From contig NZ_JAHCKL010000007.1 of NCBI RefSeq assembly GCF_026125785.1, forward strand, positions 124,001-188,000: a stretch of 64,000 nucleotides of DNA, read 5' to 3'. The notes beneath the pieces were generated by a model. It saw only the letters and a list, made by a program, of their open reading frames with translations. It was not told the DNA's origin and did no database searches. Below are positions 9,280-51,678 of the stretch, piece after piece. Numbering within the stretch: position 1 is the stretch's first letter; the number at the start of each line of letters is the position of its first letter. The DNA comes from Hydrogenophaga sp. (GTDB lineage Bacteria; Pseudomonadota; Gammaproteobacteria; Burkholderiales; Burkholderiaceae_C). The position numbers were made by a program, and so were the translations under genes.

Positions 9280-10119
9280 ATGACATTTCTCGACAAGCTG
9301 CGCAGCGCCGAGCGCCTGAACCGTTCCATGCTGTGCGTAGGGCTGGACCCCGATCCGGCCCGCTTTCCCGCCCACCTGCAAGGCGATGCCCGACGCATCT
9401 ACGACTTCTGCGCGGCCATTGTCGAGGCCACCGCAGACACCGCCCTGGCCTTCAAGCCGCAGATCGCCTACTTCGCGGCGCACCGCGCGGAAGACCAGCT
9501 CGAACGGCTCATGGCACACATGCGCAACGTGGCGCCACAGGTGCCGGTGATCCTCGATGCCAAGCGCGGCGACATCGGCAGCACCGCGCAGCAGTATGCG
9601 ATCGAGGCGTTCGAACGTTATGGCGCGGATGCGGTGACGCTTTCACCCTTCATGGGTTTCGACTCGGTACAACCTTATCTGCAGTACCACGGCAAGGGCG
9701 CCTTCCTGCTGTGCCGCACGTCCAACCCCGGCGGGGACGACCTGCAGAGCCAGCGCCTGGCGAGCGTGCCGGGGCAGCCGCTGCTGTACGAGCATGTGGC
9801 GAGCCTGGCGCAGGGTCCGTGGAACCTGAATGGCCAGTTGGGCCTCGTGGTCGGCGCCACCTACCCGACGGAGATCGAGCGCGTGCGATCGATCGCACCG
9901 CATCTGCCGCTGCTCATCCCGGGCGTCGGCGCGCAAGGCGGCGATGCAGCGGCCACCGTGAAGGCCGGGCTGCGCACGCAGGGCGCGGAGACCACCGGCC
10001 CGATCATCGTGAACTCGTCGCGCGCCATCCTCTACGCCTCCAATGGCACGGATTTCGCGGCCGCGGCGCGCGCCGCAGCGCTCCGCACGCGAGACGAACT
10101 GCAGGCCGCGCGCACCTGA
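9280..10119 (+). CDS. pyrF: orotidine 5'-phosphate decarboxylase, long (type 2) form
   Basis: Last step of UMP synthesis, converting OMP to UMP. At 279 aa it matches the longer bacterial group (TIGR02127-like) rather than the E. coli-size enzyme. The motif [15 protein letters not shown] carries the catalytic Lys/Asp network (family motif DxKxxDI), and [15 protein letters not shown] and [12 protein letters not shown] contribute to the phosphate site. The start ATG is preceded by a -10-like box with no Shine-Dalgarno. It appears monocistronic: a 155-bp gap with a separate promoter-like region precedes the next gene. Confidence 0.96.
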
Positions 10120-18149: not shown

Positions 18150-18449
18150 AGGCCCCCACGCTCCACCGCTGCGCGGGTCGCTGCCCCCCGAGGGGGCTGA
18201 CCCCGCCTTGGGAGCGGCCCGGCGGCGGGGTCCATGGCCCCCCACGCTCCACCGCTTCGCGGGTCGCTGCCCTCCGAGGGGGCTGACCCCGCCTTGGGAG
18301 CGGCCCGGCGGCGGGGTCTGTGGCCCCCACGCTCCGCCGCTGCGCGGGTCGCTGCCCCCCGAGGGGGCTGACCCCGCCTTGGGGCGGCCCGGCGGCGGGG
18401 TCCGTGGCCCCCACGCTCCACCGCTTCGCGGGTCGCTGCCCCCCCGCTC
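18150..18449. repeat. GC-rich tandem repeat array, 84-86 bp unit, about 3.5 copies
   Basis: Copies begin at 18150, 18236, 18322 and 18406 (each with GGCCCCCACGCTCC or a one-base variant); the fourth is cut short at about 18449. Each unit contains a CCCCCGAGGGGG-type hairpin and a second inverted repeat (GACCCCGCC with GGCGGGGTC). The array fills essentially the whole 315-bp gap between the converging MipA-like gene and uvrA, with no gene in it. The same unit recurs in opposite orientation at 36902-37042 and 45083-45431. It may act as a transcription barrier or nucleoid-protein site. Confidence 0.85.
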
Positions 18450-45082: not shown

Positions 45083-45431
45083 CAGCGGCGCAGCGCGGGG
45101 ACCACCCCCGGGCCGCCCCAAGGCAAGGTCAGCCCCCTCGGGAGGCAGCGACCCGCGCAGCGGTGGAGCGTGGGGGCCACCGACCCCGCCGCAGGGCCGC
45201 CCCAAGGTGGGGTCAGCCCCCTCGGGAGGCAGCGACCCGCGCAGCGGCGGAGCGTGGGGGCCACCGACCCCGCCGCCGGGCCGCCCCAAGGCGGGGTCAG
45301 CCCCCTCGGGGGGCAGCGACCCGCGCAGCGGTGGAGCGTGGGGGCCACCGACCCCGCCGCAGGGCCGCCCCAAGGCGGGGTCAGCCCCCTCGGGAGGCAG
45401 CGACCCGCGCAGCGGTGGAGCGTGGGGGCAA
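45083..45431. repeat. GC-rich tandem repeat array, 84-bp unit, four copies
   Basis: The landmark GAGCGTGGGGG recurs at 45166, 45250, 45334 and 45418, exactly 84 bp apart; the first copy starts near 45083 and is the most diverged. The unit is the reverse complement of the one at 18150 and has the same internal hairpins (GACCCCGCC...GGCGGGGTC; CCCCCTCGGGGG-type). It fills the 364-bp gap between purU and the LysR gene with no other content. Because 84 is a multiple of three and the unit has almost no stop codons, long 28-residue-repeat frames run through it that are not genes. Confidence 0.88.
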
Positions 45432-45432
45432 C

Positions 45433-46299
45433 ATGACCCGGATTCCTCCCATCCAGTGCCTGCTCACCTTCGAGGCCCTGGCACGGCTGCGCAGCGTCAC
45501 GCTGACCGGGGAGGAACTCAACGTCACACCCAGCGCGGTCAGCCACCGGGTGCGCCAGCTCGAGCAGATCCTGGGCTCCAAGCTGTTCGGCCGCGCCGAT
45601 TTTTCCCTCACCACCGCTGGCAGCGAGTACCTGGCCCATGTGCGCGAGGGCCTGGCCAGCCTGCAGCGTTTTCCCGGCGAGGGCGCCGCGCCCGGGCGGC
45701 GCAAGCTGCGGCTGGCCGTTACGCCCACCTTCGCGCGCTCCGTGCTGCTGCCTCGCCTCAAGCAGTTCAATGAGGCCTACCCCGAAATCGACCTCACGCT
45801 GCAGGTGAGCATTCCGCTGCTGGACGTGGTGGCCGAAGACGCCGACCTGATGGTGCGCTTTGGCACCGGTCGCTACGCCGACGTGGAGCACCTGTGCCTG
45901 ATGAAGGACGACGTGACGCCACTGGCTTCACCGGCCTTCGCGCGCGAGCAGGGTCCGTTCGAAAGCGCACGGGACCTGGAAGGCGTGCCGCTGCTGCGCA
46001 GCCCGCTGGATCCCTGGCGCACCTGGTTCGCCGCCCACGACCTGGACTGGCCCGAGCCTACGGAAGGCTCGCAGTTCAACGACGTGGGGCTGATGTGCGA
46101 CGGCGCGGCGGCGGGCATGGGTGTGGCCCTGGCGCGCCTCAAGCTGGCCGCGCCCTGGCTGGAGAACGGATCCCTGGTGCCGCTGTACGAGCGGCGTGTA
46201 CCCAGCCCGCACGCCCACTACCTCTGCTGGCGCACCGGCACCATGGACCGTTGGGAGTGCGCGGAATTTGCGGAGTGGCTGCGGCACAGCGTGGGCTGA
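45433..46299 (+). CDS. LysR-family transcriptional regulator (GcvA-like)
   Basis: 288 aa. The N-terminal winged HTH (MTRIPPIQCLLTFEALARLRSVTLTGEELNVTPSAVSHRVRQLEQILGSKLF) is typical of LysR/GcvA; the effector domain covers about 90-285 (LRLAVTPTFARSVLLPRLKQFNEAYPEIDLTLQ). The ATG lies 1-2 nt after the repeat array, and only repeat sequence (GTGGGGGCAAC) occupies the ribosome-binding position. The frame stays open for 139 codons through the repeats, so automated start calls could be wrong. It precedes the sulfonate-type ABC cluster by 120 bp and may regulate it. Confidence 0.9.
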   Translation: MTRIPPIQCLLTFEALARLRSVTLTGEELNVTPSAVSHRVRQLEQILGSKLFGRADFSLTTAGSEYLAHVREGLASLQRFPGEGAAPGRRKLRLAVTPTFARSVLLPRLKQFNEAYPEIDLTLQVSIPLLDVVAEDADLMVRFGTGRYADVEHLCLMKDDVTPLASPAFAREQGPFESARDLEGVPLLRSPLDPWRTWFAAHDLDWPEPTEGSQFNDVGLMCDGAAAGMGVALARLKLAAPWLENGSLVPLYERRVPSPHAHYLCWRTGTMDRWECAEFAEWLRHSVG

Positions 46300-46390
46300 A
46301 CCCGTGCGGCATTGCCGGACCACCTCAGGCGATTTCCGCCTAAGGATATGACGAAACATTGATTCCCTCCGCGTGCGTTGGCGCGAAGAA

Positions 46391-46413
46391 TCCAGGGCTT
46401 TCTTCTCCCTGGA
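46391..46413 (+). promoter_or_regulatory. stem-loop before ABC permease start
   Basis: TCCAGGG (46391-46397) pairs with CCCTGGA (46407-46413), ending 6 nt before the permease ATG and covering the only purine-rich region that could bind the ribosome. It could limit initiation. Upstream AAGGATATGACGAAACATTG contains no identifiable regulator motif. Low confidence for function. Confidence 0.3.
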
Positions 46414-46419
46414 CTTCTC

Positions 46420-47289
46420 ATGAGCGACATCGCTGCACGCTACCCGGCTGCCGCTTCCGGCGACCCGCCTCCCTCACCCCACCAGCCCGCACGCACGGCC
46501 CATCCCGTGCTGCCGAACATCCGTCGCGACGCCTGGCTGCCCTGGATCGTGCCCGCCGCGACGCTGCTGGCTTGGCATCTGCTGTCCATCACGGGAGCCC
46601 TCTCGGCCTCGGTCATGCCGGGGCCCACCCACGTGCTCGCGGCGGCGCTGGAGCTGTGGCGCAACGGCACGCTGTTCAACGACATCCTGGTCAGCCTGCG
46701 CCGCGTCTTCCTGGGCTTCGCGCTCGGGTCCGCGACCGGGCTGGTGCTGGGGTTCATCGTGGGACTGTCCACGCTGGCGCGCGGTCTCCTGGACCGTTCG
46801 ATCCAGATGGTGCGCACCATTCCCCACCTCGCGCTGGTGCCGCTGATGATCCTCTGGTTCGGCATCGGCGAAGAGCCCCGCGTGCTGCTGGTGGCGCTGG
46901 GCACGCTGTTCCCGGTCTACCTCAACACCATGGCCGGCATCCGCAACGTCGACCCCAAGCTGATCGAGCTGGGCCAGTCCTACGGCCTGGGCCGGCGCGA
47001 ACTCATCACCTCCGTGGTGTTGCCGGGCGCGCTGCAGCCGATCCTGGTTGGCGTTCGCTACGCGCTGGGCGTGGCCTGGCTGACCCTGGTGGTGGGTGAA
47101 ACCATCGCCTCGCGCGACGGCATTGGCTACCTGGTGCAGAACGCACGCGAGCTGCTGCGCATCGACATCATCGTGCTGGCCATCCTGCTGTACGCGCTGG
47201 CGGGCTGGCTGGCCGACTTCATCACGCGCAAGATCGAGGCCCGGGTGCTGCGCTGGCACCCGGCCTACCAGCCGGGGCAGGAACGATGA
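46420..47289 (+). CDS. sulfonate/nitrate/taurine-type ABC transporter permease (SsuC-like)
   Basis: 289 aa with a roughly 40-residue Pro-rich cytoplasmic tail, then six predicted helices. The BPD permease EAA-type loop is seen in LIELGQSYGLGRRELITSVVLPGALQPILVGVRYALGVAW, which docks on the ATPase. Closest to SsuC/TauC-like permeases. It starts at ATG 46420 and overlaps the ATPase gene by 4 bp. With the ATPase, binding protein and flavin monooxygenase it forms a sulfur-compound (alkanesulfonate-like) uptake and desulfurisation cluster; the actual substrate is undetermined. Confidence 0.88.
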   Translation: MSDIAARYPAAASGDPPPSPHQPARTAHPVLPNIRRDAWLPWIVPAATLLAWHLLSITGALSASVMPGPTHVLAAALELWRNGTLFNDILVSLRRVFLGFALGSATGLVLGFIVGLSTLARGLLDRSIQMVRTIPHLALVPLMILWFGIGEEPRVLLVALGTLFPVYLNTMAGIRNVDPKLIELGQSYGLGRRELITSVVLPGALQPILVGVRYALGVAWLTLVVGETIASRDGIGYLVQNARELLRIDIIVLAILLYALAGWLADFITRKIEARVLRWHPAYQPGQER

Positions 47290-48002
47290 GCGGCGCGGCG
47301 CTCACGCTGACGCAGGTGTCCCGGTCGTTCGGCGACCGCACCGTGCTGCACGCCATCGACCTGCAGGTTCCTGCTGGCCAGTTCGTCTCCCTCATCGGCG
47401 CCAGCGGCGTGGGCAAGTCCACGCTGCTGCGCCTCCTGGCCAGGCTGGACCAGCCCACCACCGGCCGCATCGAGGTGGGCGACGGCCCCCGGCCCGCCGA
47501 GACGCGCATCATGTTCCAGGAAGACCGCCTGATGCCCTGGCGCACCGTGCTGCGCAACGTGACGCTCGGCCTGAGTGGGCGCGACGACGATGCCCGCAGG
47601 CTGCTGGCCTCGGTGGGCCTGGCGGGGCGCGAAGGCGAGTACCCGCTCGTGCTGTCGGGCGGCCAGCGCCAGCGCGCCGCGCTGGCGCGCGCACTGATTC
47701 ACCAGCCCGAGTTGCTGCTGCTGGACGAGCCTTTCGGCGCGCTCGATGCGATCACCCGCGCCTCCATGCAGTTGCTGCTGCTGCAGTTGCTGGCGGCCCA
47801 GCCGCGCACGGTGGTGCTGGTCACGCACGACGTGGAGGAAGCGCTGCTGCTGTCCGACCGCGTGCTGGTCATGCGCGACGGGCGCATCGCACGCGACCTG
47901 GTGGTCGAGCAACCGCGGCCGCGCCACCGCGGTGACGCCCGGCTCGCGGCCCTGAAGGAGGAACTGCTCGACGACCTGCTGGCCGCCGAAACGCCCAACT
48001 GA
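47286..48002 (+). CDS. ABC transporter ATP-binding protein (SsuB-like)
   Basis: 238 aa. Walker A GASGVGKST, Q-loop in TRIMFQEDRLMPW, signature LSGGQRQRAALARAL, Walker B ELLLLDEPFGALD, and switch His in VLVTHDVEEALLLSD are all complete. The size and RLMPWRTVLRNV segment match nitrate/sulfonate/taurine ATPases. It overlaps the permease by ATGA and is followed after 66 bp by the substrate-binding protein. Energises import of the cluster's sulfur compound. Confidence 0.92.
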   Translation: MSGAALTLTQVSRSFGDRTVLHAIDLQVPAGQFVSLIGASGVGKSTLLRLLARLDQPTTGRIEVGDGPRPAETRIMFQEDRLMPWRTVLRNVTLGLSGRDDDARRLLASVGLAGREGEYPLVLSGGQRQRAALARALIHQPELLLLDEPFGALDAITRASMQLLLLQLLAAQPRTVVLVTHDVEEALLLSDRVLVMRDGRIARDLVVEQPRPRHRGDARLAALKEELLDDLLAAETPN

Positions 48003-48068
48003 CCGCCAGTCGCCCTCCCTATCTCATCCTGTTTTCTTTCTCTCTCTTCTCTGCCCAAAGGACACCTC

Positions 48069-49130
48069 ATGTCGACACGCGAACCCCTGCTCATCAACCG
48101 CCGCCGCGCCCTCCAGACGGGCGCGGGCCTGGCCCTGGCCGGCACCGGCCTGCCGACGCTGGCGCAAACCGGTGCGCTGCCCCAACTGACGGTGGCCATC
48201 ATCGGCGACGGCCGCACCGGCATCTGGGCCACGCTGCGCGCTGGCGAAAACAGCCAGCGCGTGGAATCCCGGCTGGGCACCAAAGTGGCGTTCCAGCCCG
48301 GCTTCACGGCTTCGCTGCCGGTGATGGAGGCGATCAAGGCGGCCGGCGTGGACTTCACTTTCGCCACCGCCACCGCGGTGGTCAACGCTGCTGGCGCCGG
48401 CGTGCCCATCGTGCCGCTGGCCGCCTTCCCGCTGCCCGGCAACACCGTGGATCTCCTGGTCAAGGCGGATTCGCACATCCGGTCCGCCGCCGACCTCAAG
48501 GGCAAACGCATCGCCCACCAGAACGGCACCACCGGCACCTACAGCCTCATCAAGTACCTGGAGAGCGGCGGCCTGCGCCTGTCTGATGTGCAGGCCGTGA
48601 GCCTGTCCGGCGCCGATGCGTACACCGCCTTCGCCCAGGGCAGCGTGGACGCATGGATCCATTGGCAGCACGCCGCCTCGCTGGCCCAGGCCCGCCTGGG
48701 GGACCGGGTGCGCACCCTGCCCAACGTCAAGACCTACGACTACGCCTTCTACGTCGCCCGGGCCGACGTCGCCGAGAAGCACCCGCAGACGGTGGCTCGC
48801 CTGGTGCGGGTCATCCGCGACACGCAGGCGGCCATCAACAAGGACCCGGCCGGCACCGTGGCGCTGTGGGCCTCGCAGGGCGGCTTCGCGCCCGACAGCC
48901 TGGAACGCAAGGTGTTCGAGAAGCTGATCGCCGACCGGCGTTTGTCCGAGTCGACGGCCACCGGCCTCAAACCCGTGGACGAAGCCGCCGCGGCTTCCAC
49001 CCAGGATCTGGCCGACAACTTCAACGCCCTGGGCGTGCTGCCGCGCCGCATCGACGTGCGCAGCTTTCTCCTGGACAGCCGTTTCGACGCCATCAAGCGC
49101 GTGGTGGCCAACGAACTCGCGCAGGCATGA
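48069..49130 (+). CDS. ABC substrate-binding protein, aliphatic-sulfonate type
   Basis: 353 aa periplasmic binding protein. The N-terminus has a Tat-like RRR signal (NRRRALQTGAGLALAGTGLPTLA). The mature part is SsuA/TauA-like (LTVAIIGDGRTGIWATLRAGEN; FPLPGNTVDLLVKADSHIRSAADLKGKRIAHQNGTTGTYSLIKYLES; GSVDAWIHWQHAASLAQ). Mutual spacing with the permease and ATPase supports one operon. Its stop overlaps the start of the downstream monooxygenase reading frame (ATGA). Confidence 0.9.
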   Translation: MSTREPLLINRRRALQTGAGLALAGTGLPTLAQTGALPQLTVAIIGDGRTGIWATLRAGENSQRVESRLGTKVAFQPGFTASLPVMEAIKAAGVDFTFATATAVVNAAGAGVPIVPLAAFPLPGNTVDLLVKADSHIRSAADLKGKRIAHQNGTTGTYSLIKYLESGGLRLSDVQAVSLSGADAYTAFAQGSVDAWIHWQHAASLAQARLGDRVRTLPNVKTYDYAFYVARADVAEKHPQTVARLVRVIRDTQAAINKDPAGTVALWASQGGFAPDSLERKVFEKLIADRRLSESTATGLKPVDEAAAASTQDLADNFNALGVLPRRIDVRSFLLDSRFDAIKRVVANELAQA

Positions 49131-50512
49131 CCATGACACACGCCAACACCTCGGGCCAGATGCACCTGGCCGCTTTCATCACCGCCGGCCCCGGCCGCCC
49201 GGGCGGCTGGCGCTACCCGGCCTCCGAGTCGCGCTGGCTGGACCTCGACTAATACAAGAGCATTGCCCGCACGCTGGAGCAGGGGCTGTTCGACATGGCC
49301 TTCTTCGCCGACATCCTGGCCGTGCCCGACCGCTTCCAGAACAGCAACGACAGCCAGTTGCGCTACGGCGCACTGGGCTCCCTGCGGCTGGACCCCGTCG
49401 TGGTGCTCACCGCCATGGCCGCGGTCACGCAGCACCTGGGCTTGACCTCGACTCGCTCCACGAGCCACTACCAGCCCTTCGAGGTCGCGCGCTCCTTGGC
49501 CACGCTCGACCACCTGAGCGCAGGGCGCGCCGGGTGGAACGTGGTCACCTCGTTCCAGGACGCCGAGTCCCGCAATTTCTCGCGCCGCGAGCAGATTCCG
49601 CGCGAGAAACGCTACGACCGCGCCGATGAGTTTCTCGAGGTCGTGCACCAGCTCTGGGACAGCTGGGAGGATGACGCCCTGCGTTTCGACCGTGCGGCGC
49701 CCTTGTTCGCCGAACCGGCCAAGGTGCACCACATCGACCACGAAGGCGAGTGGTTCAGCGTGCGCGGCCCGCTGAACGTGCCGCGTCCACCGCAGGGCTA
49801 CCCCGTCATCGTGCAGGCGGGCGCCTCGGACCGGGGACGCGACTTCGCCGCCCAGTGGGCCGATGTGATCTTCGTCAGCCACGACTCGCTCGAAAGCGCC
49901 AAGGACTTCTACAGCGAGATGAAGGCACGCGTGCGTAAGAAGGGGCGGGATCCGGCCAGCCTGAAGATCCTGCCGGCGGCCACCCCGCTGGTGGGCGAGA
50001 CGCAGGCACTGGCCGAAGAGAAGAACCGCCTGCTGCAAAGCCTGATCGACCCTGTGGCCGGCCTGTCCACCTTGTCGTACCACCTCGACGTGGACCTGGG
50101 GCAGTACCCCCTGGACTCGGCGCTGCCGGACATCAACGTGCCCGGCGTGAAAGGGCACTACGACGAGGTGCGCGAAGCCACCGACCGCGACAAGCTCACC
50201 TTGCGTGAACTGGGCCGGCGCTATGGCAGCCGCTACGAAGGTGACCTGGTGGGCACGCCGGAGCATGTGGCCGACGGGCTGGAGCGCTGGTTCCGCGAGG
50301 GCGCGGCCGACGGCTTCATGATCGCCGCGCCCTACCAGCCCGGTGGGTTCGAGGAATTCGTCCGCCTGGTCGTGCCCGAGCTGCAGAAGCGCGGCCTCTT
50401 CCGCACCGCATACAGCGGGCAGAGCCTGCGCGACCACCTGGGCCTGGAGCGCCCCGCCCACGGTGCCTGGCGCGAACGGGCCACGCCCCGCGTCGACCGG
50501 AAAGCCGCATGA
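49127..50512 (+). pseudogene. LLM-class FMN-dependent monooxygenase (NtaA/DmoA/SnaA type), interrupted by in-frame TAA
   Basis: The intact frame would encode about 460 aa of a flavin-dependent monooxygenase that cleaves C-S or related bonds. Codon 42 (49250-49252) is TAA, inside the conserved block read as SRWLDLD-stop-YKSIARTLEQGLFD; family members have an aromatic/polar residue here, so a single TAC-to-TAA-type change is the simplest cause. The frame resumes without shift and continues to 50512 with all expected motifs (NVVTSFQDAESRNF, PVIVQAGASDRGRDFAA, DVIFVSHDSLESAK, VGTPEHVADGLERWFREGAADGF). Restart at ATG 49295 would lose the first barrel strand. A nonsense mutation is more likely than an error, but reads should be checked. 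Confidence 0.9.
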
Positions 50513-51009
50513 GCACCCGCCCAACTACCCCGAAAACGGCGCGCGCCACCACCCGCCAGGGCACAGCAATCAAGACCGGCCGCGCGGCGAAAGCGCCAGG
50601 CGAAATCGTCGGCATCCAGGCCGGCACCACCGCGCTGACCGGTCGCTTCATCGTCAGCGCGGGCACGAACCCCTTTGTCTCCGACACACGGGTCAGCGCC
50701 GGCGGGCCGGGCGAGGCGGTGCAGGCGGGCCAGTTGCTGCTGGCCAGCCTGGCCTCGTGCGGGCTGGGCCTGATCCAGGGCCGCGCCGCGGAACTGGGCC
50801 TGCCCCTGGGCAACGCGGTGGTGGAAGCCGCGTTCCAGCGGCATGCGACGGACAAGACCCGCTACGCCTGGATCCGCCTCGCCTTCCGACTCGAAGGCGT
50901 GACGGCCAGCCAAGCCCGCAAGCTGCTCGCGCACTTCACCGGCCACTGCCCGATCTACAACACGCTGCGGCGCGGCGGCACCGTGCAGGCCTCTGCCGAA
51001 CCCGCCTGA
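50509..51009 (+). CDS. OsmC/Ohr-family protein
   Basis: 166 aa. A basic N-terminal tail (about 30 residues) precedes the OsmC fold: NPFVSDTRVSAGGPGEAVQAGQLLLASLASCGLGLIQG and the second cysteine region LLAHFTGHCPIYNTLRRGG; the paired redox cysteines of OsmC/Ohr proteins are present. Such proteins reduce organic peroxides and are commonly found in sulfonate clusters of Burkholderiales. The ATG overlaps the monooxygenase stop, so its translation may be reduced if the upstream nonsense codon causes early termination. It ends the sulfur operon. Confidence 0.85.
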   Translation: MSTRPTTPKTARATTRQGTAIKTGRAAKAPGEIVGIQAGTTALTGRFIVSAGTNPFVSDTRVSAGGPGEAVQAGQLLLASLASCGLGLIQGRAAELGLPLGNAVVEAAFQRHATDKTRYAWIRLAFRLEGVTASQARKLLAHFTGHCPIYNTLRRGGTVQASAEPA

Positions 51010-51114
51010 GGGCAGCGACACCCCGCCACAGCGTGGGCCGATTCCAACAGCCCCGCAAAAAGCACGAACAAAGCGTTACATTCTTCGACACCCCGTACCG
51101 GAGGGGGGTAAGAA

Positions 51115-51678
51115 ATGACGCGATTGTGGCGATGGCTGCCCTGGGTGGCCCTGGTGATGCTGAGCGGCTGCGCGGCCACGGGCCCGCGCTTCGCCGAGGT
51201 GCAGGGCGGGTTCCCGGACCTGCGGCCCGGCTACGGGCGACTGCTGGTGTACCGCACCGGCATCGTCGGTGCCGCCGTGCAGCCCGACGTGCGGCTCAAC
51301 GGCGAAGTGGTGGGCAAGTCTCTGCCCGACGGCTTCTTCTTCGTGGACCGGGCCGCCGGACGCTACCGCGTCTCGATGCGCACCGAAGTGGAAACGGCGC
51401 TGGACGTGGAGCTGAGCGACGGCGCCACGGTCTATGTGCAATCGGGCATCACGCTCGGGCTGTTCGTCGGCCAGCCCCGGCTGACGCTGGAGACCGCCGG
51501 TTCGGCGCTGCCCCAGCTCGGCGGGCTGGCCTACACCGGGTCCGTGCCGCTGGTCCCCGGCCGTTCGGTTCCTCGCGCCAACGATGCCACGCCCACCGGC
51601 CCCAGCCCGGCCCCGCGCGCCACGCCCACCGGGGTGACGCTGGACGACCTCGGCGGGCTGATGCGCCCCGCCCGCTGA
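51115..51678 (+). CDS. DUF2846-type lipoprotein
   Basis: 187 aa. Lipoprotein signal with lipobox LSGC (Cys about residue 19) and a beta-rich DUF2846-like domain (GRLLVYRTGIVGAAVQPDVRLNGEVVGKSLPDGFFFVDRAAGRYRV), then a Pro/Thr-rich tail. Function unknown; probably outer-membrane anchored. A strong GGAGGGGGG site precedes the ATG, and a TACATT -10-like box lies about 38 bp upstream. The following protease starts 11 bp after the stop, so an envelope operon is likely. Confidence 0.8.
   Translation: MTRLWRWLPWVALVMLSGCAATGPRFAEVQGGFPDLRPGYGRLLVYRTGIVGAAVQPDVRLNGEVVGKSLPDGFFFVDRAAGRYRVSMRTEVETALDVELSDGATVYVQSGITLGLFVGQPRLTLETAGSALPQLGGLAYTGSVPLVPGRSVPRANDATPTGPSPAPRATPTGVTLDDLGGLMRPAR

Follow-up and report, generated by a model that had tools for sequence, protein, structure and literature searches.

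A probable recent nonsense mutation in an NtaA/DmoA-family monooxygenase gene of an SsuABC-like import operon in Hydrogenophaga sp.

Among enzymes of solved structure, the dibenzothiophene sulfone monooxygenase DszA/BdsA (PDB 5tlc, 5xkc and 5xkd) is the best relative of the gene described here (E 7.7e-119, chain residues 40-451). In BdsA, Phe12 and His20 were placed in the substrate site by docking, and activity fell by about 80% in the variant F12A and by >90% in H20F (PMC5819316). The gene lies in a window of 64,000 nucleotides of Hydrogenophaga sp. (the whole stretch of DNA analysed, from contig NZ_JAHCKL010000007.1), and its frame contains an in-frame stop. The part after this stop covers positions 31-422 of the 422 of profile TIGR03860 (NtaA/DmoA-family FMN-dependent monooxygenases; E 9.5e-156) and passes the cut-off of 279.7 bits. 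A sequence-only reading of the window had called it an NtaA/DmoA-type gene that is well kept apart from its stop, and the profile score agrees with this. The gene does not qualify as SsuD by score: it reached 46.9 bits with the alkanesulfonate monooxygenase profile TIGR03565, whose cut-off is 518.2.

The monooxygenase gene is preceded by three transport genes and followed by an OsmC-like gene (Table 1). The permease, ATPase, binding-protein and OsmC frames are unbroken, and each covers most of its best profile, so the earlier description of the genes on both sides as intact holds. All three transport proteins scored below the cut-offs of the SsuA, SsuB and SsuC profiles and were taken as related to these proteins, not as equivalogs. 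The stop codon of the binding-protein gene and the start codon of the monooxygenase overlap, and judging from this arrangement the translation of both genes is probably coupled. The monooxygenase is the only oxygenase gene recognised in the operon, whose putative substrate is probably an organosulfur compound. Promoter and terminator scans of positions 45900-51150 found none, and a literature search on the combination of sulfonates and OsmC found nothing to the point.

Table 1. Features of the import operon and of the interrupted monooxygenase frame (window coordinates)
Feature	Coordinates	Strand	Evidence
ABC transporter permease, SsuC-like	46378..47289	+	PRK11365 SsuC, 276.6 bits, below cut-off 347; start possibly internal to the listed ORF
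ABC transporter ATP-binding protein, SsuB-like	47286..48002	+	PRK11247, 284 bits, below cut-off 395
Substrate-binding protein, SsuA/NMT1-like, uninterrupted	48069..49130	+	SsuA_fam, 147.3 bits, below cut-off 163.5; PF09084
First 41 codons of NtaA/DmoA-family monooxygenase (strand 1 and the stretch leading to helix 1)	49127..49249	+	Frame, alignment, L024 model; start overlaps binding-protein gene stop
In-frame TAA, codon 42	49250..49252	+	Frame translation; PF00296 match across the stop
Possible restart: AGGGG and, nine bases later, ATG 49295	49281..49297	+	Anti-Shine-Dalgarno duplex, -5.7 kcal/mol; putative
Remainder of monooxygenase frame, 419 codons and TGA	49253..50512	+	TIGR03860, 518.8 bits
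OsmC-like protein, uninterrupted	50509..51009	+	PF02566, 42.5 bits

As the sequence-only reading had it, the monooxygenase frame opens with the ATG at 49127-49129, meets the TAA at codon 42 and stays open after it. Of the 461 codon positions that precede the final stop, the last 419 run without a further stop to the TGA at 50510-50512. The codons upstream of the TAA belong to the same gene, since their product (HLAAFITAGP...W) can be aligned to the N-terminal end of the relatives. A PF00296 search of the host's own genome gave a single match at this place, which bridges the stop and carries "1 TAA" inside. Third-position GC is similar on both sides of the TAA, 0.951 upstream and 0.900 downstream, and the 41-residue piece before the stop, when searched alone against profiles, gave no family match. 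A recognisable gene thus carries an inactivating change, as would a pseudogene, and because of the TAA it does not offer the complete uninterrupted frame, strand 1 included, of a TIGR03860 enzyme. Further decay, which a pseudogene may also show, was not found: the 419 codons hold no other stop, and the host retains 43 of the 44 columns fully conserved among 86 relatives and 82 of the 85 conserved at 95%. Its three misses fall inside the relatives' own spread (0 to 9 each by leave-one-out, n = 86), so there is no sign of decay besides the stop. An undecayed remainder of this kind is consistent with a recent event, with an error at the stop or with a product that still matters.

The 86 relatives comprised four from the host genus, 80 loci of named genomes, one from another genus of the same family (G082) and one from the order sample (G842). 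They were picked by search rank and not randomly, the 80 loci being the best 80 of at least 594 in a scan of the collection; for two of these (L018 and L029) the best match was another copy within the same locus, away from the match place, and this copy was used. The monooxygenase of Neobacillus pocheonensis (L012) has an in-frame stop of its own near the N-terminus, seven codons before the column of the host stop and about 5 kb into the locus. Its stops were masked for the alignment, and it was kept in the residue counts and excluded from the upstream-frame and codon counts. When the homologues were aligned across codon 42, as had been advised, a sense residue was found at the stop column in all 86 (His 36, Tyr 28, Phe 11, Leu 5, Ala 3, Gln 1, Asp 1 and Glu 1). 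The three closest of the aligned relatives (G082, L014 and L024), of which G082 is the nearest with 58.4% over the alignment, have Tyr there, and the proposed origin of the TAA from a Tyr codon is therefore plausible. At the column of Met 49295 the residues were Ala 31, Met 24, Ser 16, Leu 14 and Cys 1. In each of the 85 relatives that carry no stop themselves, the open frame extends 30 codons or more to the upstream side of the stop column, with an ATG, GTG or TTG 25-60 codons before that column. On these grounds ATG 49295 was rejected as the start of the family, and the objection that homologues might begin at its equivalent is not borne out by their frames.

Close relatives of the monooxygenase and of the binding protein are rare in the samples searched. 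In the genus, the monooxygenase was matched at E<=1e-100 in five of 67 genomes, the host and four others with 45-49% identity. In the wider searches, where at most four or five candidates were scored per genome, matches came from 2 of 399 genomes of the family sample (E<=1e-120; the host and G082), 2 of 399 of the order sample (E<=1e-125; the host and G842) and 1 of 369 of the class sample (E<=1e-135; the host alone). The binding protein, searched with the same limit on candidates, matched at E<=1e-50 in two of the 399 family genomes, again the host and G082, and at that threshold no plasmid record matched it. Since 620 of 72,556 plasmid records matched the monooxygenase at E<=1e-80, all with <60% identity, the enzyme family itself is common and the rarity applies to close relatives of the host monooxygenase. 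This rarity fits a dispensable accessory operon.

G082, the only genome of its genus, is the one genome of the family sample besides the host in which a relative of the operon was found. From a reading of its ORFs, permease, ATPase, binding protein and monooxygenase stand in the same order as in the host, and the monooxygenases are 60% and the binding proteins 46% identical. The G082 monooxygenase is an open frame of 510 codons whereas that of the host is interrupted, and the G082 binding protein has an in-frame TGA at 9748-9750 of locus L103 (contig C24 at 18747). In contrast to the host with its OsmC gene, no OsmC-like ORF of at least 150 amino acids was found in the approximately 1.5 kb after the G082 monooxygenase. 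A scan of 88 kb of contig C24 for in-frame stops, made with the host's codon table, flagged five sites, two of which read as mid-gene, the one in the binding protein and one other. The latter is a TGA at 87806 (L121) in what appears by reading to be a PQQ-dependent dehydrogenase. With two mid-gene stops in 88 kb, G082 could itself be a genome in decay or one prone to errors, and little weight should be put on its parallel with the host.

Four explanations of the stop were weighed. We consider it probable that the TAA makes a recent, isolated nonsense allele that inactivates the monooxygenase; an error in the consensus comes next and is rather unlikely, followed at a distinctly lower level by a working restart product and then by readthrough. 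The consensus error is the main rival. In that case the organism would have an intact gene, and the TAA would be confined to the assembly, a draft of 46 contigs and 93.84% completeness. A lone stop in a preserved gene is what such an error would look like, and the conserved columns are retained as they would be in a working copy. However, the stop is internal to a contig of 199 kb and outside tandem repeats, and it has no counterpart among the in-frame stops of the sampled genome. These were collected by a codon-usage scan for in-frame stops only, with at least 35 open coding-like codons required on each side, over 599,270 of 4,167,306 bases (14%). The scan flagged 36 stops, 11 on contig C44 (199,270 bases) and, in 200 kb each of C1 and C34, 17 and 8 respectively. 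Read by eye from the translations, 35 were junctions between separate genes, with less certainty at two (C44 83539, whose stop is followed by a piece of 44 residues that was not recognised, and C1 179097), and 49250 was the sole mid-gene site. A consensus full of nonsense errors is therefore unlikely, as is wholesale decay, and general decay of the genome was rejected on the same count. As to the tandem repeats, the window has two arrays of a GC-rich unit of 84-86 bases, at 18151-18444 (3.5 copies) and 45110-45429 (3.8 copies), whose units look by eye like mutual reverse complements.

The sequence-only reading had also raised an N-truncated protein made from ATG 49295. Restart there is mechanically plausible: the codon lies only 42 bases past the stop, and its AGGGG gives the strongest anti-Shine-Dalgarno pairing of the 10 listed start codons that lie in frame between 49127 and 49442, so that some truncated protein could be made. 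That this protein would be a functional enzyme is very improbable, since part of the barrel should be absent from it. A structure was predicted for the relative L024 from an alignment of 20 relatives (mean pLDDT 83.3, pTM 0.86; pLDDT <50 at residues 1-4 and 18-30); in it, residues 9-15 form strand 1, residues 38-50 a long helix and residues 55-59 strand 2. In this model the stop column is residue 40, close to the start of the helix, and Met 49295 is residue 55, the first of strand 2. The predicted product would thus begin at strand 2, without strand 1 and helix 38-50, and without seven columns invariant in the 20 relatives (L10, F13, W26, R27, Y41, E49 and D54), all of them before the restart point. 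A useful truncated protein is weakened as a proposal by these absences, and also by the farther upstream frames and possible starts of the 85 uninterrupted relatives. On the BdsA chain the restart corresponds to residue 54 and the stop falls immediately ahead of residue 40, and Phe12 and His20, the residues assigned to the substrate site, precede the restart point (PMC5819316). A literature search on translation restart in bacteria found nothing to the point. Readthrough of the stop, often enough to give some full-length enzyme, has even less to recommend it. The codon is TAA, generally the least leaky stop. A survey calls TGA leaky and argues that genes of prokaryotes with in-frame stops often show purifying selection, and that readthrough of these stops may occur (PMC7918605). 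In the present alignment no relative has a stop at this column (0/86), although conservation would be expected of a programmed readthrough site. TAA ends 9 of 115 scored coding segments on the contig, or 9 of 116 when the scan was repeated (the count may include 49250), so it acts as a stop in this host. Another meaning of TAA was rejected for the same reason. A local RNA structure for recoding was likewise rejected, as the fold was weaker than that of shuffles (z-score +1.65), and no tRNA genes were found in the window. The most doubtful proposal of all makes the stop a switch: coupled translation would end at codon 42, restart at 49295 would give a shortened flavoprotein with a changed role, and the operon would be decaying piecemeal across lineages, by its enzyme here and by its binding protein in G082.

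A paralogous monooxygenase was sought in the host, as the sequence-only reading had advised, and one distant gene of the NtaA/DmoA family turned up. The PF00296 search of the genome gave three luciferase-family genes, the interrupted one at 49127, one on contig C16 and one on C1. The C16 gene passes the TIGR03860 cut-off (340.6 bits), is only 33% identical to the interrupted monooxygenase and adjoins an ABC ATPase that by reading resembles the siderophore-uptake type; the C1 gene is of the MsnO8 type, and all three stay below the SsuD cut-off. The host also has two TauD-family genes, one flavin reductase and two PAPS-reductase-family genes. The C16 gene and the TauD-family genes may leave the host other routes of desulfonation. 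Other sulfur sources are therefore likely, and loss of the monooxygenase would be tolerable.

We thus favour, with good though incomplete confidence, a recent and isolated nonsense mutation at codon 42 that would have inactivated the NtaA/DmoA-family flavin monooxygenase of an SsuABC-like import operon. Most likely the codon is real in the organism, the enzyme is lost and the event is recent. Ribosomes starting at 49127 would stop after 41 residues, and at most a low level of restart would follow at ATG 49295, its product being without the first strand and the first long helix and most probably non-working. The loss would probably be tolerated because the host keeps the PAPS-reductase-family genes of sulfate assimilation. 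If this nonsense allele is real, the strain is predicted to import an organosulfur compound that its own operon no longer breaks down, and annotators should not credit the genome with the monooxygenase activity. A literature search on nonsense pseudogenes and sulfonates in metagenome-assembled genomes found none. Apart from these consequences, such an allele, recent and in a rare accessory operon, would be nothing unusual. Compared with the described systems, the gene differs from DszA/BdsA in its surroundings, as it stands beside an SsuABC-like importer and OsmC, and no adjoining dsz partner genes were recognised by inspection. Within the NtaA/DmoA family its codons before the stop align with the N-terminal segment of the relatives, whereas its frame is broken by a TAA at codon 42.
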